Source of the DNA: Clostridiaceae bacterium
GTDB taxonomy: Bacteria; Bacillota; Clostridia; DSM-8532
NCBI GenBank assembly: GCA_012516065.1
Contig: JAAYXD010000258.1
Span: 1-55,102 of the forward strand
Direction of reading: 5' to 3'
DNA: 55,102 bases
The translations under genes and the position numbers were made by a program. Below, piece after piece: positions 23,592 through 46,081 of the stretch. The stretch's first letter is position 1. Every line of letters starts with the position of its first letter. A model generated the notes under the pieces. The model was not told where the DNA came from. It worked only from the letters and a program-made list of their open reading frames with translations, and made no database searches.

Positions 23592-23592
23592 C

Positions 23593-25455
23593 GTGCTTGA
23601 TCCCAATGACCGGAGACTCTACCTGGATGAACTGAGACCGCCCGTCGGTTACACGTTTGACCGGGCTGTGTGTACGACCTACTCTTTAGATTTGTTGTCG
23701 CTGCTGACGGTCCCGCTCTCGTTAGCGTTCAGCGAGACTAGTGGCAGAGAAGAGGTGTTTCGTGATCCGATCATCGTCCTCGAGGCACTGCAGAGAACTG
23801 TGGAGCGTATCGCTATCTTTTGTCAGCAGGGACGCATTGTGGTGCCTCAATCTGATTCACTGCTATACAGCTACCTCGAGAAGTCAGTGGTCGAGGTCAG
23901 GCCGCCGAGTCGACACGGCGTGTTCCATCCGAAGGTCTGGCTGCTTAGGTTCACGTCAGACGACGAACCTCCGCTGTTTAGGTTCGTGTGTTTATCCCGC
24001 AACCTAACCTCAGACCAGTCGTGGGATACCGCACTGACCCTGGAAGGGCATTTGGACCAGTCGAGGAAGAATGCCTTCTCGCGCAACCGGCCTCTGTCTG
24101 ACTTCATTGCAGCCCTTCTGTCACTGGCCGTGCGCCAAGTGAACCCGAACGTTCAGGAGCACGTGTCTGCTCTTGCAGACGAGGTTCTGCGGGTTAGGTT
24201 TGAGGTGCCTGACGGCTTCGATGGCGAAGACTGGAGTTTCATGCCTATGGGTTTTGAAAGGCATAGCCGAACACCAACGCTAGATGGCTACTCCAGGCTG
24301 ATGATCATTTCACCGTTTCTATCTGGTGAGCCGGTGAGTCTGCTGGCCAGGACTGGCAATAACAACGTTCTGATTTCGAGGAGCGAGAGTCTGGATGCCT
24401 TGCCACCAGATCTCCTGGCCGATATACGGAGCCACACCCAGGTCTATACGGTTGACGACGCTGCTGAACGCCCAGAGACGGAGGACGAGCAGTTGAGCCA
24501 CGGCAAGGACCTCTCTGGTTTGCATGCCAAGCTGTTTGTGGCTGAGCGCGGATGGAACGCGCGCCTGTTCACGGGTTCGGCAAATGCGACGGACGCTGCT
24601 TTCCACAATAATGTGGAGTTCCTAGTGGAACTGAGTGGCAGAAAGAGCCGGATCGGTATCAACAAGATCCTCCAGAAGGAAGGCGAGAGGGGCGCCCTTC
24701 TAGATATGCTTGTGCCCTACCACCCGAGTTCGACTGTCGAGAGCACGCAACAGGAGAAGCTGGAAAGCCTTCTAGAGCAGGGACGAGCTGCAGTTGCTGA
24801 AGCAGGCCTCGCGTTGCGGGTCGTACCTGAATCGGGCGGAACGTTTGTCCTTCGCCTTAACACACACTCGCCACTGGTCCTAGAGCCGGAGCTGGTCGAC
24901 ACTCGGTGTCACCCCATCACCATCAATGTGAGCCAGTCCCAGAGTCTATCGCCGCTTGCGAACGGAGACGAGGTTGACTTCTGCGGTCTTCCTCTCAGAT
25001 CGGTCACCGGCTTTCTGGCGTTTCGGTTCACTGCCGAGGTTCAAGAGGTCAGGCAAGATTTGTCCTTCGTGATGAATCTGCCGGTAACGGGCATGCCCGA
25101 GGAGCGCGACCGCGAGATCCTGCGGGCTATCGTAGCCGACAGAGGTCAGTTCCTGCGCTATCTACGTCTTCTGTTGAGCGACGATCCGGATGCCTACATC
25201 TTGTCAAGCTTACGCACCAGAGCCGTCGCCAGCGATGGAGGCGGAACGGAGCCCGAGTCATCAAGGGTGCCCGATCTCCCGCTCTTCGAAGACCTGGTCA
25301 AGACACTCAGCCGCAGCCCGGAGAAGCTAGCGCGCATCTCAAGGCTGATCGAAGAGTTGCGTGACACAGAGGGAGGCATCAGTGTGCTTCCAGAAGGTTT
25401 CAGTGAGCTGTGGTCAGTGATCCGGGTGGCCTGTACAAAGGAGGACGATCTGTGA
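23593..25455 (+). CDS. Phospholipase D-like nuclease with two HxK motifs
   Basis: This protein of about 620 residues has two PLD half-sites: GVFHPKVWLLRF (His112, Lys114) followed by CLSRNLTSD, and SGLHAKLFVAER (His311, Lys313) followed by FTGSANATDAAF. This is the H-x-K...(G)S-x-N arrangement of PLD-family nucleases acting on nucleic acids. The GTG at 23593, 1 bp after the DUF6361 stop, is chosen; an open frame extends upstream to 23455 but only inside the neighbouring gene. The C-terminal third is specific to this subfamily. The stop overlaps the helicase start as GTGA (25452-25455). Confidence 0.9.
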   Translation: MLDPNDRRLYLDELRPPVGYTFDRAVCTTYSLDLLSLLTVPLSLAFSETSGREEVFRDPIIVLEALQRTVERIAIFCQQGRIVVPQSDSLLYSYLEKSVVEVRPPSRHGVFHPKVWLLRFTSDDEPPLFRFVCLSRNLTSDQSWDTALTLEGHLDQSRKNAFSRNRPLSDFIAALLSLAVRQVNPNVQEHVSALADEVLRVRFEVPDGFDGEDWSFMPMGFERHSRTPTLDGYSRLMIISPFLSGEPVSLLARTGNNNVLISRSESLDALPPDLLADIRSHTQVYTVDDAAERPETEDEQLSHGKDLSGLHAKLFVAERGWNARLFTGSANATDAAFHNNVEFLVELSGRKSRIGINKILQKEGERGALLDMLVPYHPSSTVESTQQEKLESLLEQGRAAVAEAGLALRVVPESGGTFVLRLNTHSPLVLEPELVDTRCHPITINVSQSQSLSPLANGDEVDFCGLPLRSVTGFLAFRFTAEVQEVRQDLSFVMNLPVTGMPEERDREILRAIVADRGQFLRYLRLLLSDDPDAYILSSLRTRAVASDGGGTEPESSRVPDLPLFEDLVKTLSRSPEKLARISRLIEELRDTEGGISVLPEGFSELWSVIRVACTKEDDL

Positions 25456-28400
25456 ACGTAGCACAGAAACCCGATGTAAAACAGATCCTCAGTCGGCTCA
25501 AAGATTTCCAGAGGCGAACAGTAGACTATGTCATTAGGAGGCTCTATCACGATCCGGATAGAGTCAACCGCTTCCTGGTTGCAGATGAGGTCGGCCTTGG
25601 CAAGATAATGGTAGCACGTGGGGTAATCGCCCGTGCCATTGAGGAGCTATGGGACAAGGTAGATCGAATCGACATTGTCTACATCTGTGCCAACGCCGAG
25701 ATCGCCCGCCAGAACCTGAACCGCCTTGACATCGACAGCGACAGGACGATCGCCTTCTCAACGCGCCTAACCCTTCTGCCTATGCAGATACACGACCTTC
25801 GAGGCAACAAGTTGAACTTCGTGTCATTCACGCCTGGAACGTCCTTCGACCTGCGTTCCCGCGAAGGCATGGCTGAGGAGCGAGCCTTGATCTACCATAT
25901 GCTGCGCATGGGATGGCAGTTTGGCGATCGTGCCGGGCCGAAGAACCTTATGCAGTGCCATGTTCAGCGCAGTGATTCCTGGAGAGAGCGCCTTGATAGG
26001 TTCCCGTCTGGTAGGATCGACAGGGGATTACAGGACGCCCTTATGGAGGAGTTGACGAAGAGGCCGGAGATACGCAAGCGATTTGATCACCTGGCAGATA
26101 GGTTTGGCTATTCTCGCAAACACGTGCCTTACCGGGACCGCAGAGAGCAACTTGAGTTGGTGGGTGACCTCAGGCGAGCGCTTGCCGAGGCCTGTGTCAA
26201 CGAGCTGGAACCTGATCTCGTCATCATGGACGAGTTTCAACGCTTCACGGATCTTCTGTATGGCAATGACGAGGTGGCGAGCCTGGCCGAGACGCTCTAT
26301 AGCTATCCCGGCGCCAAGGTCCTGCTGCTCTCAGCGACGCCGTACAAGATGTATACGATCTATCACGAGACCGAGGACAGCGACCACTACGAGGACTTCG
26401 TGAGCGCAGTCCGCTTCCTTCAGGACTCGCCCGAAGTTACCCGTGCGTTTGAGGGGAAGCTGGCAAGGTACCGACGAGAGCTCCTCTCCTTTGAACCCGA
26501 GCACGCCGATGGCCTGGACGAGGCCAAACACGACGTAGAACAGGAGCTACGACAGGTTATGTGCCGCACCGAGAGATTAGCGGTTACAGAAGACCGAGAC
26601 GGCATGGTTTCCGAGTCGCCTGGCGACTTAAGCATGCCGACTGCGCAAGAGCTTCGCTCCTATGCGGCTCTCGACGCGGTTGCTCGGGCGCTGGATGTCA
26701 CAGAACCAATCGAGTACTGGAAGTCCGCCCCCTATGTACTGAGTATCATGGATAGACAGGGGTACAAGCTCAAGGAGAGGTTCGTGAAGGCTCTGGCGGA
26801 GCTGGAGGCTGCAGGCGCTGGCCGTAGTTCGACTGCGGGAAGAAGCACCGATGCGGATTCTGAAGTGGATGCAGGGGTCGATGTTGGAGCAGGTGCTCAG
26901 GTCGATGCGAGGGCTACGGCGGAGTTTGCAGCCGTCTTGGGTAAGTGTCGCAATAGCATGTTGTCCTGGAAAACCGTGAAGCGCTTCGATCGAGTCGATC
27001 CCGGCAATGCTAGGCTACGTACGCTCATGAGCCAGAAGATTGATCCAGGAGCTTGGCAGCTGTTGTGGTTACCTCCGTCACTGCCTTACTACGAGGTACC
27101 TAGTGGTCCGTATTCTGATCCGACACTGCAAGGGTTTACCAAGGGATTGGTCTTCTCTTCTTGGAAGGTCGTTCCCAAGGCCATCGCTATTCTCTGCAGC
27201 TATGAGGCAGAGAGGCTGATGATCGCTTCTGCGGGCCAGCAGGCCGACTACCAGGAGATCAGCCGACTCCGCACGCTGCCACTACGATTCCCGATCGTAG
27301 GAGGGAAGCCGGGTGGGATGTCTACCTTTACGCTGTTGTACCCGTGCCTTACGCTGGCCGAGGCTGTTGACCCTCTCATGATCGGGCTTGAGTTGGTCGG
27401 CACGGAGTTTCCGGGCCTGAAGGAGATACAGGGCATCGTTGCCCAGAAGCTGGAAGGGCTCTTGGCACCAATCATTGCCCAACATGCCAGGAATACTAGC
27501 CGGAGTGGACTTCCCGATCCTAGCTGGTACTGGGCCGCCTTGCCTCTACTCGATAAGAAGTACCACCCTAGAGAGGTAGGCAATTGGCTAAGGCACCAGT
27601 CTGACGATCTGGCCTGGGGAGAGATGGCCAGGGATTTCCGCGATCCCGAAACACATACTGGCTTCGCAGGGCATGTGGACGCGTTTAGCAGGCTTATTAA
27701 GGAACCTTCGTCTTTGGGACGGCCGCCCGACGACCTCGTCACTGTCGTGACCAAGATCGCTCTGGGCTCACCGGCCGTAACAGCGCTCCGTGCTCTTCGG
27801 CGGAGCTGTAGGACGGAGGCAGAGGCTGGGCATGCAGAAGGGGCCGGGCATGTGGAAAGGGCTGCGCATGTGGAATCAACCCGTCCCATGCAGACCGATC
27901 ATTTGTTGGCGGCATCCGCTCGGGTCGCCCTGGGCTTTCGTTCTTTGTTCAACCTGCACGATTCCGTCGCCTTGCTCCGCAGCATGGGTAGAGCGCATGG
28001 GAGCGGCCCGAATGGGGACAGCGACGTAGAGCGGTACTGGGAGGTAGTCCTCGACTATTGTCTGAGCGGCAACCTGCAAGCACTCCTAGACGAGTATGTC
28101 CACATACTCCGAGACTCGCTCGGAGTCACAGACAAGTCGCATGGAGTAGCTCTTCGAGAACTGGCGGACGAGATGGAGGCTACTGTCTCCATCAGAGCCG
28201 TCAACCTGGACTTCGACGATCTGGAACCCGGCCAGCCGTACTTCGTGAAGTCACACAGCCTTCGCTGTCGGTACGCTCTCCGTTACGGAGACTACCGAAG
28301 TAGCGAAGATGAGTCCGCTACCCGTGCGGACCAGGTGCGTAGGGCGTTTAACTCCCCCTTTAAACCCTTCATTCTCGCCTCTACATCAATCGGTCAGGAG

Positions 28401-28877
28401 GGCCTGGATTTCCATCAGTACTGCCATGACATATATCACTGGAACCTCCCCTCGAACCCAGTCGATCTAGAGCAACGCGAAGGGCGAGTCCACCGGTACA
28501 AGGGCCATGCCATCCGCAAGAACGTGGCTGGCATCTTCGGTCTACGTTCACTGCTCGGCCGGGTGAGCGATGGCGAGGACCCGTGGCTTGCTCTCTTCGA
28601 GCTTGCTGCGTCGACGCGAGGGCCCGGATGCTGCGAGCTGGTGCCATACTGGGTCTACGAGTTCGAAGGAGGCCACAAGGTCGTGCGGCATATACCTGCC
28701 TTGCCTCTGAGCAGAGAGCTAGCCCAGATCGATGGTCTGAGACGCACACTTGCTGTCTACAGAATGGTGCTCGGGCAACCCAGACAGGAAGATCTAGTAG
28801 GATATCTATCGCAAAGGGCAGAGGGCGGTTTGAGCACAGACGAGCTGCTGAGGTTTAGGGTGGATCTGGCGCCGTAA
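25452..28877 (+). CDS. Large SNF2-like SF2 helicase with an altered Walker A
   Basis: This protein of about 1141 residues starts at a GTG behind AAAGGAGG and overlaps the PLD stop. Motif I reads VADEVGLGKIMVARGVIA: residue 52 is Ile where GKT is expected, a change reachable by one C-to-T step (ATA for ACA). Motif II is LVIMDEFQRF, motif III LLLSATPYKMYT. Near the C-terminus come STSIGQEGLDFHQYC and EQREGRVHRYKGHAIRKN, the motif V and VI block typical of defence helicases paired with PLD nucleases. Two low-complexity inserts (near residues 455-490 and 790-820, the latter with AGHAEGAGHVERAAHVES) separate the lobes. It probably drives DNA translocation for the PLD nuclease, unless Ile52 disables it. 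Confidence 0.9.
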   Translation: MNVAQKPDVKQILSRLKDFQRRTVDYVIRRLYHDPDRVNRFLVADEVGLGKIMVARGVIARAIEELWDKVDRIDIVYICANAEIARQNLNRLDIDSDRTIAFSTRLTLLPMQIHDLRGNKLNFVSFTPGTSFDLRSREGMAEERALIYHMLRMGWQFGDRAGPKNLMQCHVQRSDSWRERLDRFPSGRIDRGLQDALMEELTKRPEIRKRFDHLADRFGYSRKHVPYRDRREQLELVGDLRRALAEACVNELEPDLVIMDEFQRFTDLLYGNDEVASLAETLYSYPGAKVLLLSATPYKMYTIYHETEDSDHYEDFVSAVRFLQDSPEVTRAFEGKLARYRRELLSFEPEHADGLDEAKHDVEQELRQVMCRTERLAVTEDRDGMVSESPGDLSMPTAQELRSYAALDAVARALDVTEPIEYWKSAPYVLSIMDRQGYKLKERFVKALAELEAAGAGRSSTAGRSTDADSEVDAGVDVGAGAQVDARATAEFAAVLGKCRNSMLSWKTVKRFDRVDPGNARLRTLMSQKIDPGAWQLLWLPPSLPYYEVPSGPYSDPTLQGFTKGLVFSSWKVVPKAIAILCSYEAERLMIASAGQQADYQEISRLRTLPLRFPIVGGKPGGMSTFTLLYPCLTLAEAVDPLMIGLELVGTEFPGLKEIQGIVAQKLEGLLAPIIAQHARNTSRSGLPDPSWYWAALPLLDKKYHPREVGNWLRHQSDDLAWGEMARDFRDPETHTGFAGHVDAFSRLIKEPSSLGRPPDDLVTVVTKIALGSPAVTALRALRRSCRTEAEAGHAEGAGHVERAAHVESTRPMQTDHLLAASARVALGFRSLFNLHDSVALLRSMGRAHGSGPNGDSDVERYWEVVLDYCLSGNLQALLDEYVHILRDSLGVTDKSHGVALRELADEMEATVSIRAVNLDFDDLEPGQPYFVKSHSLRCRYALRYGDYRSSEDESATRADQVRRAFNSPFKPFILASTSIGQEGLDFHQYCHDIYHWNLPSNPVDLEQREGRVHRYKGHAIRKNVAGIFGLRSLLGRVSDGEDPWLALFELAASTRGPGCCELVPYWVYEFEGGHKVVRHIPALPLSRELAQIDGLRRTLAVYRMVLGQPRQEDLVGYLSQRAEGGLSTDELLRFRVDLAP

Positions 28878-30989: not shown

Positions 30990-33900
30990 ATGGCAAGACG
31001 GAAGAGCGTAAGTAATCCCTTCTCCACTGGAGGCGGCGGCGCTCACTTTGAGGCTTACGTGCAGGCCTTGTTTGTCACATTGATGCTCACTGGTGGGCAT
31101 GCCCCTTGTCTCCCTTGTTGGCCGATCGTGGAGATAAGACTCCAGGGCAAGATCGACGGCTTCGATATAGACGATCTGATAGTCGTCGTCAAAGACCCAC
31201 ACACCAAAGAACGGCGAAAGCTGCTCGGTCAGGTGAAGCACTCCATTCGTGTCACTCCAAGGAGTCGGTTGTTTGGTGAGGTTATGCAGGCCGCGTGGAA
31301 TGACTTCAACAACCCAAGGGTCTTTTCAAGAGGCAAAGATGTCATCGCCCTGATTACCGGCCCGCTGAGCGAGACTGATGAACATAATGTGCAGTGGCTG
31401 CTGAACCAGGCCAGGCGCGCAGATGACGTTGATACGTTCTTCCGGAATGTAGATCAGGCGAGATTCAGCCCACCCAAGAGCTGTAAGAAACTCGGGGCCA
31501 TTCAAGACCACCTGAAGATAGCTAATGGCGGCAATGAGGTTCCAAGAGAGGAGCTTTACAGCTTTTTGAGACACCTCTATTTGCTCGATTATGATCTGGG
31601 CGATGAGTTCGGTGTCGTTTTGTCACTGCTGCACTCCCATATTTCCCAATTCCAGCGCCGGAATCCGGAGTGGGTGTGGTCGAGGATAGTGGACATGGTG
31701 CAGATTTGGAATAAGGACGCCGGAACAATCACTCGTGATAGCCTGCCCCAAGACCTTTTGGAAGTCTTTAGGCCCAAGATCGTGACGGAGATGCCAGAAG
31801 CTCTCAAGACGCCTCAAGAGAGGCCCAAGGCAAATTGGATGCAACATCCTGACGCAAACTACTTGGCATTGGCGACCCTCATAGGTGCGTGGAATGAAAA
31901 GAGCAAATGCGACATCGACGCGGTTACTCAGCTGCTCAGAATGGACTATGACACTTGGCTAGAGAAGGCGCGAGAGATATTACATTACCCCAAGAGTCCG
32001 TTGTCACTTAAGAATGGCATCTGGAGAGTCTCGAATCGGGCTGAGCTTTGGGCTCTTCTTGGACAGCGTATTTTGGATCAGGACCTTGACATCTTTGGAT
32101 CTCTGGCCGTTACCTTGCTGAAAGAGCGTGACCCCGCCTTTGAATTGCCTGCTGAGGAGCGATATGCGGCCAGCGCGTATGGGAAAGACTTGAGTCATTC
32201 GCGCGTGTTGCGGGAAGGGATCGCTGAAGGTCTCGCTATTCTGGGGAATCGACCCGATGTATGTTGCAGTTGTTCCATGATCAAGGCAGAAACAACCGCC
32301 GTTTTGGCCATACGCGAAATCCTGGGCAAGGCCGACTGGGTCATCTGGGGAAGTCTGGACCATTTATTGCCTCTTCTGGCTGAAGCTGCTTCGGGTGAAT
32401 TCCTTGATGCAGTCGAAGACGCGCTGCAGATGATTCCCTGTCCATTTGATCGGCTACTCGAGCAGGAAGGTAAGGGTATCTTTAGTAGGAACTACTTAAC
32501 AGGTTTGCTGTGGGCTCTAGAAGGTTTGGCATGGGATGAGCAGTACCTAGTTCGCGTCTGTAATGTACTCGGCGAGCTCGGCAGCCGTGATCCCGGTGGT
32601 CAGTGGGCCAACCGACCCTCTGAATCGCTGGCGACCATCCTGCTCCCATGGCTACCCCAGACTCTGGCATCTGTTGAGAAGCGCAAGGTGGCAGTTCAGA
32701 CGCTCCTTAGAGAGTGTCCGGACGCCGCCTGGAATCTGATCCTTCAGCTTCTTCCTGGCCAGCACCAGACCTCTTCTGGATCGTACAAACCAAAGTGGCG
32801 AAGAACTGTCCCCGATGACTGGAAGGAGGGCGTAACACATCAGGAATACTGGCAACAAGTGTCCCTCTATTCGGAGCTGGCAGTCGATGCCGCAGGCCAT
32901 GATATCGACCGGCTCTCAGGACTCATTGACCATCTTGATAGCCTGCCAAGGCCAGTTTTTGACAAGCTCATTGAAGCTCTCACCTCGCAGCCCATTTCCG
33001 AATTGCCTGAAGATCAACGACTCTCGCTATGGACTCATCTAGCGAAGTTCGCTAGAAGGCACCGACGGTTTTCGGATGCAGAATGGGTATTGCCTGATGA
33101 GCTGATTACCCGAATTGAAGATGCAGCTGAAAAGCTCGCCCCGACCAATCCACTTAACCTGTATCAACACCTCTTCACTGATCGTGACTTTGATCTCTAC
33201 GAAGAAAACGGCAATTGGAAGGAACAGCGAAAGAGACTTGATGAGCGGCGAGACGCGGCGATTGGGGAGATCTTTCGGCAGAATGGTACCGACGGTGTAG
33301 TTCGATTTGCCGAGTCCGTGGTCTCACCAGATCAAGTGGGATACGCCCTTGGCGCTGTTTTGGACGATGCGATTGAACGGGATCTCTTGCCTCACTTTTT
33401 GGATAGAACAGATAACAAACATAGGGCCTTAGTGGGCGGACTCATCTGGAGGCGATTCCACACTAGCGGCTGGAGCTGGTGTGACAGCATCGAGAAATCA
33501 GGTTGGAGTCCAGGGCAAGTTGGTCACTTTCTGGCTTGCTTGCCGTTCACCAAGGGAACGTGGGATCGTGCTTCTGAATGGCTCAAGGAGAATCAAGTGG
33601 AATACTGGTCACGTGCTAGTGCCAATGCTTATCAGGCCGATGGTGACCTTTCCACTGCTATCGATAAGCTCATCGAGCATGGCAGGCCATGGTCAGCGAT
33701 CAACTGCTTGGGCATTATGCATCTCACAGAACAGCCGATCAGTGCCAAGCAATGTGTCCGGGCTCTACTCGCTGCGGGTTCTTCCAATGAGTCTGCTAAC
33801 TCCATGGACCTGTACAATGTTGCTGAACTAATCCGGCTTCTTCAGTCGGAGGCTTCGGTTGCGCAAGAAGACCTCTTTGCAGTTGAATGGGCATATCTCC

Positions 33901-34532
33901 CTCTGTTGGACCGTCGTAGTGGAGTCGCCCCCAAACTCCTTGAAAGCAGGTTAGCTAGTGATCCCAAGTTCTTCTCCCAGGTGGTCCAACTAGTCTATCG
34001 ATCGAAAAGAAAGGACCAATCATCCGGGGAGTCGACGGAGAGGTTAAGGGTGATAGCGAGAAATGCCTGGCGGTTGCTGCATGGGTGGAGAACACCACCG
34101 GGACTGCACGAAGATGGTGGGTTCGATGCGAAGTATTTCCTAGAGTGGCTTCAGCAAGTGAAGAATCTCTGCATGGAATCAGGACATCTGGAAGTAGCGC
34201 TGGGCAAGATCGGTGAAGTCTTGATCTACGCTCCATCTGATCCGGATGGGCTGTGGATACATAAGGCTGTTGCGGCAGCCCTAAATGCCCGTGATGCTGA
34301 AGATATGCGCTCCGGATTCCGACGGGGAGCAGTCAATTCTCGTGGTGCTTATTGGGAGGACCCCTCGGGCAGATCCGAGAAAGCACTGGCTGAGCAGTTC
34401 CGTCGTAAGGCTGAGGATGTGGAGAATGCTGGCTTTCATCGATTTGCTGTTACATTGAGAGATCTAGCAGAGAGGTACGAACGCGAGGCTAAACGTGTAG
34501 TTGACGAGTACGAAGACCGTGATGACGAATAG
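30990..34532 (+). CDS. Cap4/DUF4297-like nuclease fused to a giant helical scaffold
   Basis: This 1180-residue protein opens with a nuclease-like domain: STGGGGAHFEAYVQALFVTL (Glu21), then GKIDGFDIDDLIVVVKD (Asp61/62) and KLLGQVKHSI (Gln81, Lys83). This D...(E/Q)xK pattern resembles the dsDNA nuclease domain of Cap4/DUF4297 effectors. The remaining roughly 950 residues are regular alpha-helical repeats without a Walker A or B motif, ending in a charged tail (YEREAKRVVDEYEDRDDE). Avs-type proteins use a similar nuclease but include a STAND NTPase; none is visible here. The likely role is a large single-gene sensor-nuclease. The start follows AGAGGTCAGG, after a TATAAA at 30963. Confidence 0.8.
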   Translation: MARRKSVSNPFSTGGGGAHFEAYVQALFVTLMLTGGHAPCLPCWPIVEIRLQGKIDGFDIDDLIVVVKDPHTKERRKLLGQVKHSIRVTPRSRLFGEVMQAAWNDFNNPRVFSRGKDVIALITGPLSETDEHNVQWLLNQARRADDVDTFFRNVDQARFSPPKSCKKLGAIQDHLKIANGGNEVPREELYSFLRHLYLLDYDLGDEFGVVLSLLHSHISQFQRRNPEWVWSRIVDMVQIWNKDAGTITRDSLPQDLLEVFRPKIVTEMPEALKTPQERPKANWMQHPDANYLALATLIGAWNEKSKCDIDAVTQLLRMDYDTWLEKAREILHYPKSPLSLKNGIWRVSNRAELWALLGQRILDQDLDIFGSLAVTLLKERDPAFELPAEERYAASAYGKDLSHSRVLREGIAEGLAILGNRPDVCCSCSMIKAETTAVLAIREILGKADWVIWGSLDHLLPLLAEAASGEFLDAVEDALQMIPCPFDRLLEQEGKGIFSRNYLTGLLWALEGLAWDEQYLVRVCNVLGELGSRDPGGQWANRPSESLATILLPWLPQTLASVEKRKVAVQTLLRECPDAAWNLILQLLPGQHQTSSGSYKPKWRRTVPDDWKEGVTHQEYWQQVSLYSELAVDAAGHDIDRLSGLIDHLDSLPRPVFDKLIEALTSQPISELPEDQRLSLWTHLAKFARRHRRFSDAEWVLPDELITRIEDAAEKLAPTNPLNLYQHLFTDRDFDLYEENGNWKEQRKRLDERRDAAIGEIFRQNGTDGVVRFAESVVSPDQVGYALGAVLDDAIERDLLPHFLDRTDNKHRALVGGLIWRRFHTSGWSWCDSIEKSGWSPGQVGHFLACLPFTKGTWDRASEWLKENQVEYWSRASANAYQADGDLSTAIDKLIEHGRPWSAINCLGIMHLTEQPISAKQCVRALLAAGSSNESANSMDLYNVAELIRLLQSEASVAQEDLFAVEWAYLPLLDRRSGVAPKLLESRLASDPKFFSQVVQLVYRSKRKDQSSGESTERLRVIARNAWRLLHGWRTPPGLHEDGGFDAKYFLEWLQQVKNLCMESGHLEVALGKIGEVLIYAPSDPDGLWIHKAVAAALNARDAEDMRSGFRRGAVNSRGAYWEDPSGRSEKALAEQFRRKAEDVENAGFHRFAVTLRDLAERYEREAKRVVDEYEDRDDE

Positions 34533-35895: not shown

Positions 35896-36409
35896 TCGGG
35901 ATGATGAACCACTTAGTCCATATCTGTCAGAGGTAAGCAGCTATTGGTTCAATCGTTATCGTGATGATGGGATCAGCCATCTGCAGGTATGTGAGGGCGA
36001 GCAACAAGTGATTCAGTTGTCAACATTGTGGTACCGGCGCGGAACGCTTCATCTGGCCTCCGGCGAAGTGCCCCTCTTTAGTGAGTCACAGCATGGCAGG
36101 TTTCTGCCGTAACGAGGCCTATGAGCGGTGATCCTACTGCCTCCAGGCACTGGTCCTGAGTATGATCCACTAGCGAGGCTTGTAGGCCGTAAGGCTCAGC
36201 TCCACGTCCCATGCGCTAGAAGCAGCGTCACACAGAGCAAAGGCCGCGACTCGACCAGCGGTTTTTTCGGTGACTACAGGTGCGGTTGAGCTGAAATCGG
36301 ATATCAGGCTTCTGGTTCTGTCTGTCTCAAGAGACAGCTTCGAAGGTATGGCGAGTCCAGGTGGTAGCGCTTCGGACACTGGTGAGGGTGCAAGCGGGAG
36401 AGGAGAGTC

Positions 36410-37195
36410 ATGGGGCACGAACGAGTGTCATCCCTTCCACAGAAAAGCCAGAAATGGGTCGACCTTGTTGATAGCATCGGAGTGATGCATTCTGTAGGCA
36501 TTCCTATCGGCGTAATCGCGGCCCAGACACTTAGGAATGTCCAACGCAGATACGAGAGACTGTCCCGAGACGCGGCGGTCAAGTCGGCGTTTGCTTTCCT
36601 GGTGGCGTTCTCCCGAGAGTCTGGACTTGGGGAGAGAGCGCTCGGTAGCGAAACTAGCATTTCCTTGCCGCATGGACCTACACCACTCGCAGTTGTCAAG
36701 GAGCTGAGGCGGTTCGCTCCAGCAGAAACGTGGGCTTCAGAATATGGGCAGATAGCGTTTGCTGCGGCAGCAGACGCACTAGGTCAGTGGTACAGAGACC
36801 ATGCTACAGGACAGATGTCGCTGTTTAGGCCCACACATGATCCCAGCGAGTGCTGGTCTGGCCTTGCGACTGGGTCTGGGTTCTGTGAACTCAGTCGGCT
36901 GTTCTTTGCCCGACTCACAGAACGCTATCTGAACTACTTCTTGGACCGGATCGCATCAGCCGTGGCTCCGTCCATTCAGATGCGAGATCAGTTACACACC
37001 GCCATGACACAGCACATCGACGGCGTGTCGAAGCACGCCTTTGAGACAGCTAAGATCACGCAATCCTTCGCTGCTGGATGGTACAGCTCTCGCGCTCGCG
37101 AGAGAAACCCTGATGAATCGGATATTGAGCGATTTCTCTCCGTCGCATTTGGCAAGCTCCGCGAGGAGCTTCGGCTAGAGGAGGAGAGGATATGA
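36410..37195 (+). CDS. Met-Gly-starting partner of a QueC-like enzyme (QatB-like role proposed)
   Basis: This 261-residue protein, beginning MGHERVSSLPQKSQKWVDLV, has no domain that I can name. It is mostly helical, with FFARLTERYLNYFLDRIASA near the C-terminal third and a Glu/Arg-rich end. The start is well supported: GGAGAGGAGAG ends 4 bp before the ATG. Residue 2 is Gly. Its stop overlaps the QueC-like gene by 4 bp (ATGA), so the two are coupled. In Qat systems a small partner of this kind (QatB) accompanies QueC-like QatC, and QueC-like defence enzymes are reported to attach a deazaguanine to a partner N-terminus. By analogy this is the likely substrate; that is inference. Confidence 0.75.
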   Translation: MGHERVSSLPQKSQKWVDLVDSIGVMHSVGIPIGVIAAQTLRNVQRRYERLSRDAAVKSAFAFLVAFSRESGLGERALGSETSISLPHGPTPLAVVKELRRFAPAETWASEYGQIAFAAAADALGQWYRDHATGQMSLFRPTHDPSECWSGLATGSGFCELSRLFFARLTERYLNYFLDRIASAVAPSIQMRDQLHTAMTQHIDGVSKHAFETAKITQSFAAGWYSSRARERNPDESDIERFLSVAFGKLREELRLEEERI

Positions 37196-39054
37196 CTGCC
37201 CTCACTCCTCATGTGTTTCTGTGCAACGGTGCCTTGGAGCCACGCGGTCTTGCTTCCAACGCTAAGGTGGTTCCCCTGAGCTACACGAACCATACGTACG
37301 GACGTAATGTCTGCCTGCAGTTGCCTCGGTTCGTGAGTCAGGTCTTTCATCTTCCACCGAGGGTTTTGGACCTGCTGGAGATTGGTGCATACGTCTTCGC
37401 TGCCGACCGGATAGCTAGCCGAGGATCAAACGACGCAGTCGAATTGCACGCCTGGCACCGCAGAATGCGGTTTGCAGTTCAAGTACGGGATATTGATTTC
37501 TGGCAGCAAGCATCCGTGAAAGACAAGCTGACCGCAGCTCTTCTTTTCATGACTGGTGATAGCGAGTATGTTTTTGATTTCGAAGCAGGGCATGCGACCC
37601 CGCCTACATCGCTGTTCGACCACGAGGAGTTCTTGGTCACTTCTGGCCGACCGTCGTCGGTTGTTCTGTTCTCGGGTGGGTTGGATTCGTTAGCCGGCGC
37701 GCTGTGTCGGTTGAAATCGACTAGCGAGGATGTGTACTTGGTTAGCCACCGGTCAGGGCAGCCGAGCACTGCTCGGACTCAGCAGGTTCTGGTTCGGGCG
37801 TTAGAATCCCAGTATCCGGGTAGGGTCCACCACTACTCATTCCGCTGTGGACTCTCCCGCCTTCGGGCGTCGGAAGAGAGCCAGCGAACTCGTGCCTTTC
37901 TATTCTTCTCAATCGCGTTTGCATTGGCTAGCAGGTTGGCTCTCGATTTCGCCTATGCGTACGAGAACGGAATAACGTCACTGAATCTATTGCGTCGGCA
38001 GGATCTAGTCGGAGCGAGGGCAAGTCGCACCACTCATCCGAAGACTCTCCACTTGATGTCCAGCTTTCTGTCTAAGCTATACGGTTCGGAGTTCAGAGTA
38101 CTCAATCCCTTCTGGAACAGAACTAAGTCAGACGTAATGACCTTGCTTGACGATGTCGGAGGGCGAAATCTGATTAGCAGTGCTGTTTCGTGTAGCAAGA
38201 CGTTCAGGCGTTCTCAGATGGCGACTCATTGCGGAGGATGCTTCCAGTGCGTTGATCGACGGCTTGCGGCGTATTCGGCGGGGCTTCAAGATGTTGATGG
38301 CGCTGGCATCTACTCAACAGATGTGTTTACCGACCCGATTGATTCACCTGAAACGCGAACCACTGCACTGGACTACCTTCGTCAGGCCCTCTTGTTCGCC
38401 AGTCAGACAGACGATGAGTTTTACGTTGATAGGCTCTCTGAGCTCGTGGATATCACTGACTATGTATGTAGCTCTGAGGAGGAATCGGTTGAGGCAGTCT
38501 TTGAGCTTTGTCAAAGACACGGGAACCAGGTGATTAAGGCACTCAAAGAGACGCGGTACCACCTTGATGACCCTAGAACGAAGATGAAGGAAGGATGTCT
38601 GTTGAGGCTAGTGGCTGACCGGGAGTACTTCCTTGGTGAGACACAGAGAATGGCGAGAAGCGTGGCTTCGATGCTAGAGAGCGCCTTGCCGTTGGCATTC
38701 CAAACGAGGAGGCCAGCTAGAGAGATCGAGCTAAACGATCAGATCCAGGCTCTGCTGAGAGCAAATGGCGGTGAGTTCGAGAGGGAGTTTTCTTCGGTGC
38801 GCTTCTGCCTGGGCAACGCGGTGCCCGACCACACGTGTGTGGATGCAGACTTACTCGTGGAGGCCAAGTTCGTCAGGAAGGGAACTCCTCCCAGTAAGGT
38901 GTCAGAGGGGATCGCCGCTGACATCACCAAGTACCCCAAAGACGCCTTTGTTTTATTCGTTGTGTATGACCCAGATCGGGCCGTCGTGGACGATGGCAGG
39001 TTCAGGGCAGACATTCTCAGCAAGCGAGACTGTGAAGTCGCCATAATTCGCTAG
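37192..39054 (+). CDS. QueC-like PP-loop enzyme fused to a DpnII/MboI-type nuclease
   Basis: This 620-residue protein has three parts. Residues 1-150 resemble the N-terminal domain of defence QueC proteins (RVLDLLEIGAYVFAADRIASRG). Next is a PP-loop ATPase with SGGLDS at 161-166 and a QueC-type zinc site, Cys334, Cys347, Cys350 and Cys353 (HCGGCFQCVDRR). QueC turns carboxy-deazaguanine into cyano-deazaguanine. The C-terminus (about 510-620) is a PD-(D/E)XK nuclease with VDADLLVEAKFVRKG (Asp551/553, Glu557, Lys559) and DITKYPKDAFVLFVVYDP. Ancillary queuosine genes are absent, so a tRNA role is unlikely. It forms a two-gene operon with the Met-Gly protein. Confidence 0.9.
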   Translation: MTALTPHVFLCNGALEPRGLASNAKVVPLSYTNHTYGRNVCLQLPRFVSQVFHLPPRVLDLLEIGAYVFAADRIASRGSNDAVELHAWHRRMRFAVQVRDIDFWQQASVKDKLTAALLFMTGDSEYVFDFEAGHATPPTSLFDHEEFLVTSGRPSSVVLFSGGLDSLAGALCRLKSTSEDVYLVSHRSGQPSTARTQQVLVRALESQYPGRVHHYSFRCGLSRLRASEESQRTRAFLFFSIAFALASRLALDFAYAYENGITSLNLLRRQDLVGARASRTTHPKTLHLMSSFLSKLYGSEFRVLNPFWNRTKSDVMTLLDDVGGRNLISSAVSCSKTFRRSQMATHCGGCFQCVDRRLAAYSAGLQDVDGAGIYSTDVFTDPIDSPETRTTALDYLRQALLFASQTDDEFYVDRLSELVDITDYVCSSEEESVEAVFELCQRHGNQVIKALKETRYHLDDPRTKMKEGCLLRLVADREYFLGETQRMARSVASMLESALPLAFQTRRPAREIELNDQIQALLRANGGEFEREFSSVRFCLGNAVPDHTCVDADLLVEAKFVRKGTPPSKVSEGIAADITKYPKDAFVLFVVYDPDRAVVDDGRFRADILSKRDCEVAIIR

Positions 39055-39456: not shown

Positions 39457-40572
39457 ATGTCAGACATCTCGCACTGTATAGAGGGCCTTCGCGCTCAGAT
39501 AGAGCGTCACAAACGTAAGGGGCTGAAGGAGTACCCTACACGCACAATTCTGATTGACCCCCTGTTGCAGGCTCTGGGCTGGGACGTCAGAGATCCCGAC
39601 ATCGTGGAGTTGGAGTATCCAACTATTGATGGCAAATCAGTGGACTATGCTCTGAAGATTAACCGTAAGCCTGTTCTTTTGGTCGAAGCGAAACAGCTGA
39701 CCGATCACCTTGACGACATCAAGGCAGTCACCCAAGTGGTGGGGTATGCAGCGAACGATGGAGTAAAGTGGTGTGTCTTGACAAACGGTGCACGGTACAA
39801 GGTCTACAGCACCTCGGAGCAGGCAGCTGCTCCTGAAAAACTTCTGTTCGAGGTCTCGATTGAGTCGAGGGACAGCCAGGGCCTGACAGTTCGACAGATT
39901 GCTGATCAGCTCTCGAGGCTTTCGCGCGAGTCGTTAGCACGAGGTGTGTTGGATGAGCTTGGCGAAGAGATCTTCACAACGGCTAAGGTACGCAAGGCTC
40001 TAGGGAAGCTGTTCAGCGATCCTCCCAACTCGTTGATCAAGGCAATTCGTCGCGCCATTGGCGATGATTCGGTCAGGCCAACGCAGATCAAGAGGGCGTT
40101 GGCGAGAGTTATGGGAGTAGGCCGCTTGGAGTCCCGCCCGAGTGCAGTGCGCGACCAGCAGGTGCCGACTACAGACTATGCATCTCGCCCAGGGAAGCGT
40201 CGCACCTATGATGAGGTCCATCATACTGTCGGTAGGCCTCAGGAGGTCGTCGAGCTGTACCGGGCGCTTGATCGGATGTGTCAGGACATGGCTCCTGGGG
40301 AAGTCACTCGGAGGTATCTTGCGAAGTATGTAGCTTGGTCAGTCAAGAAGTCCACTTTCTGCAGCGCTCATCTCCAGCAGGGCGGCATGAGGGTGTGGCT
40401 AAAGCTCTCACCACAGGACGTCCCGGAGTCTGCTACCTTTGCCCGGGACGTGTCGAACGTGGGTCATTGGGGAGTTGGCGATGTCCAGCTGGCAGTTGGC
40501 GACTTGTCGACATTACGCGATGCAGAGCAGTTGATCCGTACCTCATTTGAGAAGAACACCCGGCGTTCGTGA
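39457..40572 (+). CDS. HSDR_N nuclease-like domain plus DUF5655 protein
   Basis: This 371-residue protein begins with a type I restriction R-subunit N-terminal fold: YPTRTILIDPLLQALGWDVR, IDGKSVDYALKI (Asp63), PVLLVEAKQLTDHL (Glu77, Lys79), then VVGYAANDGVKWCVLTNGARYKVY, a complete PD-ExK pattern. The C-terminus from about residue 255 is DUF5655: VVELYRALDRMC, RRYLAKYVAWSVKKSTFCSA, and a VWLKLSPQDVP...GHWGVGDVQL segment. There is no helicase part, so it is a stand-alone nuclease of a type frequent in defence islands. It lies about 150 bp upstream of the giant SF1 helicase gene and may act with it. Confidence 0.88.
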   Translation: MSDISHCIEGLRAQIERHKRKGLKEYPTRTILIDPLLQALGWDVRDPDIVELEYPTIDGKSVDYALKINRKPVLLVEAKQLTDHLDDIKAVTQVVGYAANDGVKWCVLTNGARYKVYSTSEQAAAPEKLLFEVSIESRDSQGLTVRQIADQLSRLSRESLARGVLDELGEEIFTTAKVRKALGKLFSDPPNSLIKAIRRAIGDDSVRPTQIKRALARVMGVGRLESRPSAVRDQQVPTTDYASRPGKRRTYDEVHHTVGRPQEVVELYRALDRMCQDMAPGEVTRRYLAKYVAWSVKKSTFCSAHLQQGGMRVWLKLSPQDVPESATFARDVSNVGHWGVGDVQLAVGDLSTLRDAEQLIRTSFEKNTRRS

Positions 40573-40723
40573 AGAGGCCTTTGCAGTTGGATGTCTGATG
40601 AGTGGTCACGATTTGACATCGCAAGCCTTCTGGTCGGGGTTGACGTAATGGTCAGAGCTCGCACTCTGTTCCTACAATTTGGACCGTCTATGTTGTCCTA
40701 CTATTGGTGGTGAAATCATCTAC

Positions 40724-43700
40724 ATGTCCGCTGGCATCGAGACGACCTTGGATACTCAAAGGAGTCGACTTCTGCAGCTTATCGACTACTGCCGTAAGAC
40801 GACGACGCTTCGAAGCAGGCCGGTTGCACGTGTCGAGGACCACCGTTCCTTTTCCCTGTATGAACACGAGATCCAAGGCCTACCCGGTATCAAGATCAGC
40901 ATCATGAGTGATGACGACGAGGTTTGGTTGGTCGTTGATCGGCTCCACGAGACCAGGCCACCTGATATCACTAGCGCGTTGCTAGCCCCTTGGGTGAACA
41001 CATCCAATGATCCTTCGTCTGAGCCGACCTTGCGAGAGCATATCGACGGTGAGAGTCTCATCCTCGCAGGAACACATCGCCGATCCTCTGATGAATCGCA
41101 GGTGGACAAGCCGGCCGTAGATCCCTTTGAGCGTATCAGCCTCGATGATTATGATAGAGAGAGCGAGGTAAGGGCTCAGTTCGCAACATACTTGGATGCG
41201 AGGTGGCGCCCATGGGCTCAGACTGAGAAGCCGCGTCGAGCTACCATCCGGGTATATTCCAGGCTTTTTACCCTTGAGCAGCAGCTAGAGGGCAGTATAG
41301 TCGAATCCCAGCTTGAGGTTGTGTGGGGAGTCGGGATTGGAGTATGGAATGTCGGTGGCACTGGAGTGCGATATCCCATTGTTGGGCGGCTAGTTGAGGT
41401 GAAGCTGAACCGTGATACAGCCCAGATCGAGGTCCGACCACGAGACGTCGAGCAACAGCTTGAACTCGGCTGGTACTCCGCCGCAGGCAATCTAGGAGTG
41501 GCCAGTGTAGAGGAGAGAGCCAAGGCTCTCTATTCTGAAGCGACTATGACATTTTCACCTTTTGACCACGGGACATTCGAGGCGGTTCTTCGCGCGGCGG
41601 CATCAAGCCTCGATGGCGATGGAGTGTACTGGCCAGATCTGGAGCCTGAGGACGACCGACGAGTGCCGCAGTCCGGGCCCAATCTGAAAGTGACTGATAC
41701 CTGGGTGCTATTTGCACGGCCCCGTACGAACAACCTGTTTCTCCAGGACCTCGGAAAATTGAGAGCGGAGGTTGAGCAGGCTGAGGGTAGATTTCCACTG
41801 GCCGTGTCTAGCATAGTCACTGAGCCGGATACGGAGAATCAGGAAACAGTGCTTCCTCGCTATCGGGGAGTGTCAGTCTCATACCATGACAGACACAGTT
41901 CCGCATCCGAGCGCGAGCGGGAGTTGTACTTCCCCAAGCCGTTCAATGATGAACAGGTTAGGATCGTTCAGCTACTGGACACCTGTAGTGGCGTTGTAGT
42001 CCAGGGACCTCCTGGCACCGGGAAGACCCATACTATCGCGAATGTCATCTGCCACTACCTTGCTCAGGGTAAGCGGGTACTGGTTACATCCATGAAGGAC
42101 CCAGCTTTGGCAGTGCTGCAGGAACAGCTTCCAGAAGATATCCGGCCACTGGCGATCTCGCTGTTGACCAGTGAATCGGAGGGAATGAAGCAATTTGAGC
42201 ACGCCATCAGCAGGATCGCAGCCGAGGTGCAGAGCCTTGACCGGGCTGGTACCGAGCGAGAGATCAAGCGTTTGGAGGAGTCTATTGATAGTCTTCACGC
42301 GCGGTTGGCGGCAATCGACTATGAGATAGGCGAGTGGGCAGAAAGGAATTTCCGTGCAATTGAGCTGGATGGGGAGAGCATCGACGCGCTCAAGGCGGCC
42401 TATGAAGTGGTCGAAGGTGGGGACCTAGCCAGGTTGGTGCCAGATGAGCTTGGCATAGGGCCGGAATTTCGGCCTCAGTTCACGGATGCAGACGTGGCGG
42501 CTTTGCGAAAGGCAAGGTGCTCACTCGGGAAAGACATCGACTATCTCGATTCGTCGGTACCTCAGCCCAGCGAATTCTCCGATTCCGATCTCATCTCCGA
42601 GGTTCACCAGGATCTGTCGCAGCTTGAAAGATTGAGGCAAGCAATCCAGAACGGTGAGGTCCCCGACCTCGCTGATTCTGGAACAGAGACGCTCCAGCTT
42701 GCACGTGAACTGCTCTCGCGTGTTCAGTCCGTCAGGAACCTGCGAACGGAGATCCAGCGTGCTGACAAGAACTGGACCACATCTGTGTATCGCCGATTGA
42801 GTGACGGGGGGAACCGAGATATTCTGCAGCTATTGGAGACTCTGGGGCAGGAGATCGAGCAGGCAGTAGAGCGGCATACGACATTTCTAGTTCGGCCGAT
42901 AGCCGTGCCGAACGGGATTGAGCTCGACTCGGAACTCGTCGAGGCAATAGACAACCTGGCAAGGGGTAGTAGTGCCTTTGGGATCAGAGGTCTCTTGGGT
43001 AAGCGGGACCAGCAAAGAAAACTGGCCAGCATCTCAATACTAGGGAGCTTGCCGGTGGGTGCTGTTGACTGGGAGTACGTCAGCGAATACGTTGCTCTCC
43101 TGAAGGACTGTCGTCAACTCGTGCTGCGCTGGAACGCGATAGCCAACAGCCTCAGGCTACCGATCATGGAGGAGCAGCCAGAGAGCATCTTGGCAGTGGC
43201 AGAAGAACATGCTCTCTATGAGAAAATCAGAGGCCTGGTCGATGCAGAGGTCGCCATTTCGAATGGCGCTCCAAGGGTATTCCCAAACTGGGCTGATGCT
43301 CGTGGGGAGGTGCGCGATGAAGAGGACCTTTCCGAGCTTGAGTCAGCTCTCCGCCATCACATCACCCAGAGTCAACTCGCGAATGCGTGGGCCAAGCGGG
43401 AGCGTTGTGAGACTGTGCTAGCCGGTAGATCCGGGCGCATTGTTGATCGCATCCGCCATTTCCTCCGACATACGTTAGGGAACTCTGAAGTCGATAACGC
43501 CACAATGCGGAGCGAATGGTTTTCAGTCATGGCTGAACTCAGGCGGGTCCATACGCTTAGTGGTGACCTTGATACGGTTCGTGTAGTGTGCAGGAAGGTA
43601 GCGGCGTCCGGGGCTCCTGAGTACGCTGCATTACTTCGTCAAGCTGTAGATTCGGTGGTAGACCATCTCTTACCGGACAACTGGCGACAGGTGTGGCGCC

Positions 43701-46081
43701 TGAGACGTCTCGATACCCATCTAGAATCGATCGATGCTCAAGAGCAATTGCGACAGCTGGCCTCAAAGCGCTCTGACCTGCAAGACGACCTTGCGCGGGC
43801 CTATCGTCACGTTGTGGGAAAGCGTACGTGGCTGAAGTTGGCTCAGAACGCATCCCCCGGTATCCGGTCGGCCCTTCAGGCGTACCTGAATGCAATTCGT
43901 AAGATCGGCAAGGGCACAGGTAAGCGAGCAGCACGGTTCAGACAGGACGCACGTAAGGCCGCGGCAGAGGCAAACCCGGCCGTGCCGTGCTGGATAATGG
44001 CTCACTATCGGGTCTCCGAATCACTTCCATCGGAACTTGGCTGCTTTGACCTCGTGGTCATTGATGAGGCATCGCAATCCGACCTCACGGCCTTGCCAGC
44101 CATTCTGCGAGCTCAGAAGGTTCTGATAGTGGGCGACGACAGGCAGGTTTCGCCGGAAGGTGTGGGGCAAGACGAAGAGAAGATCCGTACTCTTATGGCC
44201 CGCTTTCTTCGCGACCAGGTAGATATTTACCGCGCACAAATGTCCCCTGACCGCTCTATCTATGACCTATTCAAGGTCGTCTTTGCGAATAGCTCCGTGA
44301 TGCTCAGAGAGCATTTCCGTTGTGTGGCTCCGATAATCGAGTACTCGAAGCGCGAGTTCTATAACCACGAGTTGCAGCCGCTTCGAGTTCCTAGACTATC
44401 AGAGCGCCTCGATCCGCCGCTGATCGACGTAACGGTGACGGATGGGTACCGTGAGGGAGATGTGAACTGGCCTGAGGCCGAGTTCATTGTAGACGAGATC
44501 ACTCGCATAGTTGGTGACCCACAAATGACGACTCGGTCGATCGGAGTCGTGTCACTTATTGGTCATGACCAAGCCAGGCTAATATGGGAAAGATTGGCTG
44601 AATCGCTTGGTCCGGAGGTAATACAGCGGCACCGGATCACGTGCGGAGACGCGCGGACGTTCCAGGGCAAGGAACGCGACATTATGTTTCTCTCCATGGT
44701 CTCAGCCCCGAATTATGTGGGGATTCCCCTCACGCGAGACACCTTTGCTCAGCGCTTCAACGTTGCAGCCTCTCGCGCCAGAGATAGGATGTACCTGGTC
44801 CGCTCTGTCAAGCTGGAGCACTTGAGTCCTAGGGATACACTGCGGCGGAGCATTATCGATCACTTCAAGACCCCGTGTGCGCAGGACGAGGTTCGAGTTG
44901 AGAATCTTCGAGAGCGCTGCGAGTCTGATTTCGAGCGGGAGATGTATGACGAGCTAGTCCAGCGTGGTTACCGAGTGACTCCTCAGGTGCAGGCTGGCCG
45001 CTATCGCATTGACTTCGTTGTCGAGGGGCATGGCGATGCCAGACTCGCCATCGAGTGTGATGGTGATAGGTACCACGGCCCAGAGCAATGGGCAGATGAC
45101 ATGAGGCGCCAGGCAGTACTGGAGCGGGTTGGGTGGAAATTCTGGCGTTGCTTCGCCTCGGCGTTCGTCCGCAGACGGAGGGAAGTGATGGACGAGCTAG
45201 TGTCGATACTGTCGGAACGCGGGATCGAGCCAGTAGGATTTGAGGAGCTACCAAGGAGTCTGCACACTGAACACCGTGTGGTAACAGCAGTCAGAGACGG
45301 GCGAGTCTCTGACTGGGAGCCAGAAGTGCTATCTGAACAGATTGCGGTTACGGACGAAACGGTCCAGCGACCGAGTGCCGGATTCCCAATGCTGCCTGAC
45401 GAGTCTTCCGTACGGGTTGTTGCACTAGCAGATGGTCTTAGCGATAGGGACCATCATCTGTCTGGCCCTGATGGCGCTGTTGTCTTGAGCGATGAGTCAG
45501 TAGCAAGTGTTTCCCTGACTGGGATACAGGTTGGACTGCCGATGACTGACTATATCGAGTACTCGGACCCTCCCTGCGTTGACCCACGCACTGCAGGCCA
45601 GCACCAGGTGATGGAGGGGATTACTCGGATCATCAAGATTGAAGGCCCGATGGTGGCGAAACGAGCCTATGATACGTACCTGAGGAGCTGTGGGATCAAG
45701 CGGATGGGCGGTGAGCTTAGGAAGGTGATGAACAGAGCTCTAGATCAAGCAATCCGCCGGAAATGGGTAGTGAGTGAGGATGAGATGGGAACTGGTGACC
45801 TTCTGTATTCTGTAGTCAGAGTTGTCGACGCCCCGGCTGTCAGGCTAAGGAGCAGAGGACCACGAACCCTCGAGGAGATACCTCCCAGCGAAGTACAGCT
45901 CGTGGCCAGGTGTCTGGCTAGACAGCATGGCTTTTCACCGGGCAGTGATGAACATCTGCACGCCATCTTGGAGTGCTTCGACCTGGTACGTCTGACTACG
46001 CAGGCTGGTGCGAGGTTGCTCGAGATCCTTGACAAAGAGTTTCCGTATGTGGATGAGTTCCTGCGAGGCATGGGTGAGTAG
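40724..46081 (+). CDS. Giant SF1 (Upf1-like) helicase with Vsr/MTES_1575 nuclease and DUF3320-like tail
   Basis: This protein has 1785 residues from the ATG at 40724; an in-frame TTG at 40679 is less likely. Residues 428-435 are Walker A GPPGTGKT. Motif II is VVIDEASQSD (Asp1114), followed by VGDDRQVSP, FRCVAPIIEYSKREF, DARTFQGKERDIMFLSMV and FNVAASRARDRMYLV. A long coiled region separates motif I from II. A Vsr-like endonuclease follows: FEREMYDELVQRGY, YRIDFVVEGHGDARLAIECDGD (Asp1430, Glu1444, Asp1446). The tail resembles DUF3320 (QVMEGITRIIKIEGPMVAKR). The helicase/Vsr/DUF3320 arrangement recalls the single-gene Hhe system, here without a recognised DUF4011. Confidence 0.88.
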   Translation: MSAGIETTLDTQRSRLLQLIDYCRKTTTLRSRPVARVEDHRSFSLYEHEIQGLPGIKISIMSDDDEVWLVVDRLHETRPPDITSALLAPWVNTSNDPSSEPTLREHIDGESLILAGTHRRSSDESQVDKPAVDPFERISLDDYDRESEVRAQFATYLDARWRPWAQTEKPRRATIRVYSRLFTLEQQLEGSIVESQLEVVWGVGIGVWNVGGTGVRYPIVGRLVEVKLNRDTAQIEVRPRDVEQQLELGWYSAAGNLGVASVEERAKALYSEATMTFSPFDHGTFEAVLRAAASSLDGDGVYWPDLEPEDDRRVPQSGPNLKVTDTWVLFARPRTNNLFLQDLGKLRAEVEQAEGRFPLAVSSIVTEPDTENQETVLPRYRGVSVSYHDRHSSASERERELYFPKPFNDEQVRIVQLLDTCSGVVVQGPPGTGKTHTIANVICHYLAQGKRVLVTSMKDPALAVLQEQLPEDIRPLAISLLTSESEGMKQFEHAISRIAAEVQSLDRAGTEREIKRLEESIDSLHARLAAIDYEIGEWAERNFRAIELDGESIDALKAAYEVVEGGDLARLVPDELGIGPEFRPQFTDADVAALRKARCSLGKDIDYLDSSVPQPSEFSDSDLISEVHQDLSQLERLRQAIQNGEVPDLADSGTETLQLARELLSRVQSVRNLRTEIQRADKNWTTSVYRRLSDGGNRDILQLLETLGQEIEQAVERHTTFLVRPIAVPNGIELDSELVEAIDNLARGSSAFGIRGLLGKRDQQRKLASISILGSLPVGAVDWEYVSEYVALLKDCRQLVLRWNAIANSLRLPIMEEQPESILAVAEEHALYEKIRGLVDAEVAISNGAPRVFPNWADARGEVRDEEDLSELESALRHHITQSQLANAWAKRERCETVLAGRSGRIVDRIRHFLRHTLGNSEVDNATMRSEWFSVMAELRRVHTLSGDLDTVRVVCRKVAASGAPEYAALLRQAVDSVVDHLLPDNWRQVWRLRRLDTHLESIDAQEQLRQLASKRSDLQDDLARAYRHVVGKRTWLKLAQNASPGIRSALQAYLNAIRKIGKGTGKRAARFRQDARKAAAEANPAVPCWIMAHYRVSESLPSELGCFDLVVIDEASQSDLTALPAILRAQKVLIVGDDRQVSPEGVGQDEEKIRTLMARFLRDQVDIYRAQMSPDRSIYDLFKVVFANSSVMLREHFRCVAPIIEYSKREFYNHELQPLRVPRLSERLDPPLIDVTVTDGYREGDVNWPEAEFIVDEITRIVGDPQMTTRSIGVVSLIGHDQARLIWERLAESLGPEVIQRHRITCGDARTFQGKERDIMFLSMVSAPNYVGIPLTRDTFAQRFNVAASRARDRMYLVRSVKLEHLSPRDTLRRSIIDHFKTPCAQDEVRVENLRERCESDFEREMYDELVQRGYRVTPQVQAGRYRIDFVVEGHGDARLAIECDGDRYHGPEQWADDMRRQAVLERVGWKFWRCFASAFVRRRREVMDELVSILSERGIEPVGFEELPRSLHTEHRVVTAVRDGRVSDWEPEVLSEQIAVTDETVQRPSAGFPMLPDESSVRVVALADGLSDRDHHLSGPDGAVVLSDESVASVSLTGIQVGLPMTDYIEYSDPPCVDPRTAGQHQVMEGITRIIKIEGPMVAKRAYDTYLRSCGIKRMGGELRKVMNRALDQAIRRKWVVSEDEMGTGDLLYSVVRVVDAPAVRLRSRGPRTLEEIPPSEVQLVARCLARQHGFSPGSDEHLHAILECFDLVRLTTQAGARLLEILDKEFPYVDEFLRGMGE

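Follow-up and report, generated by a model that had tools for sequence, protein, structure and literature searches.

The closest described systems are qatABCD and type IV CBASS. In qatABCD, QatB and QatC suffice for protection against some phages, and the defence is abolished by QatB G2D and by active-site mutations of QatC (PMC13279940). QatB starts with MGTS and has a conserved Pro16 and Trp18 (PMC13279940). Attempts to reconstitute the activity of QatC did not succeed, and its reaction and substrate were left open (PMC13279940). In type IV CBASS, Cap9 attaches 7-amido-7-deazaguanine to an N-terminal glycine (PMC11996544). In cluster 2 of the QueC family as defined by Libby et al., only about a third of the members neighbour qatA or qatD (PMC13329287). 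For the question of how QatC acts on QatB, and how the phage is stopped, the clade described here offers a natural simplification.

The gene pair studied here resembles qatABCD in that its QatC-type enzyme is extended at both termini and has the SGGxDS and (T/S)RTTHP motifs and a Cys4 zinc site, and in that an overlapping gene immediately upstream encodes a small helical partner, which begins with Met-Gly and has a conserved Pro and Trp in its tail. It differs from qatABCD in the absence of qatA and qatD, in the fusion of the enzyme to a nuclease, in forming a separate clade (SH-aLRT 97) and in scoring under the NCBI QatC cut-off. The partner tails also differ, being MGH(ER)..LP..W and about 15 residues long here, whereas QatB has MGTS and a tail of 30–90 residues. 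The pairing of a QueC-fold enzyme with a Met-Gly protein is shared with Cap9 and the CD-NTase of type IV CBASS, but the CD-NTase, Cap10, the effector and the Tyr/Asp pocket of Cap9 are missing and the fold of the partner is unrelated. Like DpnII/MboI-type PD-(D/E)XK restriction nucleases (PF18742), the enzyme has a C-terminal PD...ExK; unlike them, it has no methylase or restriction partner, and the nuclease is the tail of a PP-loop enzyme. The defining motifs of QueC-family cluster 2 are shared as well, whereas the paper on that cluster makes no mention of tails of the nuclease or winged-helix type (PMC13329287). Neither a QatC-nuclease fusion nor MGH-type partners were found described in the open literature searched, within which the pair counts as a hitherto undescribed form of Qat.

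The gene pair and its genomic setting

The window, i.e. the whole stretch of 55,102 nucleotides analysed (contig JAAYXD010000258.1), had been described in a first-pass annotation as carrying a two-gene cassette at 36410–39054, with a Met-Gly partner behind a strong ribosome binding site and a QueC-like enzyme (intact SGGLDS, four-Cys zinc site) fused to a PD-(D/E)XK nuclease. All these features were recovered. The coordinates are exact, the two frames overlap by four bases (ATGA), and the fused nuclease is recognised by Pfam above the cut-off, although through the C-terminal half of the family model only. The features are as follows.

36389..36409, + strand: ribosome-binding region of the partner gene, AGGAG-type, GGGAGAGGAGAGTC before the ATG (from sequence)
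36410..37195, + strand: partner gene, probably QatB-like, 261 amino acids, start codon ATG, N-terminus MGHERVSSLPQKSQKW / MGHERVSSLP (open reading frame, conservation, fold, similarity to QatB)
36410..36415, + strand: Met-Gly start, with Gly2 as the putative modified residue after Met removal (Gly2 invariant in 56/56; by analogy with QatB/CdnD, PMC13279940)
37192..39054, + strand: QatC-nuclease fusion gene, 620 amino acids, overlapping the partner gene by ATGA (open reading frame, family matches)
37354..38340, + strand: QatC-type region, residues ~55–383, with SGGLDS 161–166, R232/R234, ENG 258–260, SRTTHP 278–283, TK 311–312 and Cys 334/347/350/353 (family and structure matches, conservation)
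38347..38700, + strand: helical C-terminal extension and linker, residues ~386–503, up to the module boundary (AlphaFold2 model; boundary placed at residue 505 by comparing the enzyme with its nearest relative, L014)
38704..39051, + strand: DpnII/MboI-like PD-(D/E)XK nuclease module, residues 505–620, with PDH 545–547 and VEAK 556–559 (Pfam PF18742; motif kept in nuclease-type relatives)

The pair, with its QatC-type core, zinc site and nuclease tail, is real and not a chance pair of open reading frames, because the two genes are found together again in many distant genomes, where the catalytic residues and the Met-Gly start are kept.

The window is a defence island, which also encodes ZacA, an Mrr-type protein, a PDC-S37/ProA-like helicase-nuclease, a type III methylase and a UvrD/GajB-like helicase. 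Genes for QatA (KAP ATPase) and QatD (TatD) were absent both upstream and downstream of the pair, and neither a CD-NTase nor Cap10 (TGT-like) was found among the neighbours in the window. A Zac-like operon (22095–28877) consists of ZacA (22095–23591; 7.6e-135), a 666-aa protein without Pfam match and a helicase. A 1180-aa protein within the island (30990–34532) had no match in Pfam, PADLOC or NCBIfam. The gene immediately downstream of the cassette (39457–40572) combines an HSDR_N nuclease-like domain with DUF5655 (PDC-S18-like) and is possibly a separate candidate defence gene. It is followed at 40679–46081 by an 1800-aa SF1 helicase with an MTES_1575 nuclease (PDC-S37/ProA-like).

The QatC-type core and its pocket

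The enzyme matched QatC of PADLOC (6.6e-48) and of NCBIfam (5.7e-54; 183.5 bits, under the equivalog cut-off of 280), and Pfam QueC at 1.8e-7. It failed the canonical QueC equivalog (TIGR00364, 20.9 bits against a cut-off of 150.3). QatC chains were the sole solved relatives in a sequence search, and the AlphaFold2 model of the enzyme matched QatC 9y01 (E = 6.5e-19, 483 columns, TM-score 0.74 of target), with plain QueC far behind. In an alignment of 51 fusions, SGGxDS, the RxR (R232/R234), ENG 258–260, R279/T280/H282/P283, TK 311–312 and the four Cys were invariant or nearly so, and all known functional positions of QatC were retained in the clade. A tree of the cores placed the window among the systems with MGHER partners (support 99). 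The enzyme is QatC-type. A canonical QueC was considered and rejected on motifs and on the TIGR00364 score. Although the Pfam domain bears the name QueC, a degenerate or metabolic QueC paralogue lying beside an unrelated gene is extremely improbable: canonical QueC motifs are missing and QatC motifs present, the partner gene constantly overlaps and co-evolves with that of the enzyme (see below), and queuosine genes were not found nearby. The first-pass annotation had also considered that queuosine or dpd genes might account for the QueC domain; the window contains none, and 39 virus records with relatives were likewise without QueD.

The substrate pocket was compared with those of described enzymes. 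Cap9 and QueC have a Tyr and an Asp in this pocket and QatC two Thr (PMC13279940, PMC13329287). In the present clade, position 278 holds Thr or Ser and position 280 an invariant Thr in 51/51 members (Ser278 and Thr280 in the window); the Cap9-type Tyr/Asp deazaguanine pocket is absent from all of them, with Ser/Thr-x-Thr instead. The pocket of the clade is thus QatC-like, and while a deazaguanine tag is possible, the pocket gives it no support. The deazaguanine conjugation proposed at first pass goes too far in the face of these residues.

Precursor supply also bears on whether the added group might be 7-amido-7-deazaguanine made from CDG, as in type IV CBASS, a reading that we regard as doubtful. 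Apart from the precedent of Cap9, it draws on the presence of a QueD homologue in 6/6 assessed metagenome-assembled hosts of close relatives (L014–L019), and on the sole assessed, not mis-binned host without a QueD homologue (genome G380), in which the cassette is broken (L007). However, the deazaguanine-recognising residues are replaced as in QatC, and mutation of the QatC Thr residues to Tyr/Asp kills defence (PMC13279940). Intact canonical qatBC is also encoded in two genomes that lack a QueD homologue and keep TGT, namely L011 in G139 (98% complete) and L009 in G216 (99%). Finally, 39 virus records carrying relatives contained no QueD, though these records may be fragments. The canonical qatBC of G139 and G216 bears, moreover, on whether QatC really uses CDG.

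No QueD was found on the contig of the window. This contig (1–55102) looks mis-binned in its assembly (G000), with a GC content of 0.548 against 0.35–0.46 in the other contigs, and tetranucleotide correlations of 0.01–0.07 to these contigs against 0.71–0.90 among them. The absence of QueD from the assembly is therefore uninformative, the contig being foreign to that genome by composition, and an argument that the host lacks QueD and QueC and so makes no deazaguanine was withdrawn.

The Met-Gly partner and its co-inheritance with the enzyme

The same pair was found on a plasmid of Leptospira noguchii (L003; 43% and 40% identity), with the partner start MGHERLGILP. A GTDB scan gave six further copies in metagenome-assembled genomes (L014–L019), from Verrucomicrobiota (two), Fimbriimonadaceae, Chitinophagales, Latescibacterota and Rhodothermia. 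Virus contigs were scanned as well, and yielded 69 loci with a broader alignment and no matches with a two-sequence alignment. About 57 of these loci (L021–L077) encode a QatC-like protein, usually of 600–700 residues where complete, and an overlapping partner of ~260 residues upstream; the rest include canonical QatC with MGTS partners (L078, L080–L084). Among bacterial copies, the enzyme of L007 (584–2457 in G380) is interrupted by stops or a frame break, and both genes of L019 (5122–7945, Verrucomicrobia MAG FR_27), partner as well as enzyme, contain frame breaks.

Wherever an enzyme locus extended far enough upstream, the partner was present. A search in the opposite sense, with the partner profile against 289 genomes of the phylum of L014, revealed four more partners (Verrucomicrobiota genomes). 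Behind each lies a QatC-like frame that contains SGGxDS as well as RTTHP, and MGH was found at 3/3 complete starts. Partner and enzyme distances were strongly correlated (Mantel r = 0.885; best of 2,000 permutations, 0.217). Judged by these sequence comparisons, the two genes are inherited together and evolve in concert, and the joint inheritance that the first-pass reading implied is borne out in both search directions.

Partners were collected with a profile deprived of its N-terminal 22 columns, so that Met-Gly was not presupposed. Gly follows the start codon directly, at the expected place, in 56/56 distinct loci with a complete 5′ end, behind ATG, GTG and TTG alike, as the proposed role of this residue would lead one to expect; in rows without a Met-Gly start, the end of a contig or a frame break truncates the gene, and these rows lie outside the 56. 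In an alignment of 50 partners with identities down to about 20%, the sole invariant positions were Met1, Gly2 and Lys249, next to Trp16 (49/50), His3 (48/50) and Pro10 (46/50). The start was MGH in 48/50; the MGTS motif was not found in partners of this clade and is confined to canonical QatB.

The partner of the window had no family match in Pfam, PADLOC or NCBIfam, and none of the 50 partners matched QatB of PADLOC or NCBIfam. Its AlphaFold2 model is all-helical (pLDDT 88), with low confidence for the first ~10–15 residues. In a Foldseek search against the PDB, QatB 9y02_A was, among the matches listed, far the highest in probability and TM-score (probability 0.75, TM-score 0.37/0.43), while being a weak match by E-value (0.64), as none of them was significant by this measure. 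Profile comparison by hhalign with 12 QatB sequences gave E = 3.4e-5 and a score of 41.0 over 116 columns. Pairwise E-values being uncalibrated, significance was gauged by column shuffles and reversal; 150 column shuffles reached 19.6 at most, and the score was 41.9 with both tails removed. The partner is probably a remote QatB. The kinship with Qat suggested at first pass is supported for the enzyme (PADLOC, NCBIfam, 9y01) and is probable for the partner.

The enzyme probably modifies Gly2 of the partner, given the precedent of QatB/CdnD (PMC13279940) and the invariance of this residue. Alternatively, Gly2 might stay unmodified, with the tail plugging the PP-loop site so as to inhibit or activate it, and with an enzyme that does no more than bind or hydrolyse ATP as a switch of the nuclease. 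The failure to reconstitute QatC activity would leave room for such a switch, and the concurrently published structures of E. coli QatBC, as reported in PMC13279940, place the tail in the site. We nonetheless find it unlikely, as complete conservation extends over the PP-loop, the zinc site and a Gly2 compatible with a free amine, in keeping with a ligation reaction, for which Cap9 sets a direct precedent.

C-terminal modules and the proposed role of the pair

The DpnII-MboI family (PF18742) matched the last ~75 residues of the enzyme at 3.9e-7, over the cut-off, through model positions 67–145 of 150. The nuclease part of the fold model has low confidence. PDH...ExK is present in every member with a nuclease-type tail, i.e. 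the window, L003, L007 (G380), L015, L016 and L017. Other relatives end differently. The nearest relative of the window enzyme (L014) is 59% identical to residue 505 and has an unrelated tail beyond, and the match with L018 stops at residue 447. A winged-helix-type tail was found in 27/51 fusions, recognised as Trans_reg_C by Pfam in six and by blastp clustering with a sequence pattern in the others. Twelve phage-borne QatC fusions have a C-terminal module of ~225 residues that ends in Y-x-P...W and has no Pfam match, and the remaining tails are singletons. Because the tails differ among relatives while the core is kept, the fused nuclease is one among several interchangeable modules and does not simply stand in for QatA and QatD. 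The earlier view that the ATPase and the TatD nuclease were replaced by a fused nuclease fits the window, but most relatives hold a winged-helix or other domain in this place.

The distribution of tails makes a defence role less than certain for the whole family, since most relatives have winged-helix or other tails and many lie in phage replication modules. A phage-regulatory role is conceivable for the winged-helix branch, because several virus-borne relatives adjoin Sak4, SSB, primase and terminase genes. It would be a further step to regard the whole family as primarily a phage or prophage regulatory device with a winged-helix DNA-binding output, of which the nuclease version of the window is derived. 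Even with such tails in about half of the fusions, this seems quite unlikely to us, as the cassette of the window sits in a defence island and QatBC itself is defensive. Prophages often carry defence systems.

We consider it fairly probable that the pair is a two-gene QatBC-type anti-phage defence system with an on-board nuclease. By analogy with QatBC and Cap9, the partner and the QatC-like enzyme would form a complex, the initiator Met would be removed, and the unstructured tail of the partner (Gly-His-Glu-Arg...) would enter the PP-loop active site, where an ATP-activated carboxylate substrate would be joined to the amine of Gly2. On sensing of infection, the complex might unleash the enzyme-fused nuclease, which, to judge from its domain, may cut phage DNA or all DNA.

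The constancy of Met-Gly together with the swapped tails points to a protein-tagging machinery with interchangeable output modules. As a tentative proposal, these systems may form a widespread, unnamed clade of bacteria and phages, in which a QatC-type ligase puts a non-deazaguanine group on the invariant N-terminal Gly(-His) of a QatB-like partner, while the output module fused to the ligase is exchangeable (nuclease, winged-helix DNA-binding domain or others). If so, this would be a plug-in architecture for protein-tag signalling. The clade offers two genes, a minimal tail of ~15 residues and an enzyme to which the output domain is physically attached, and the exchangeable tail would mark the output port of QatC. 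The many copies in phage genomes would widen the known reach of QueC-derived protein tagging. Carriers of the ~225-residue module include L024 (3435–5459), L028, L033, L036, L040 and L045.
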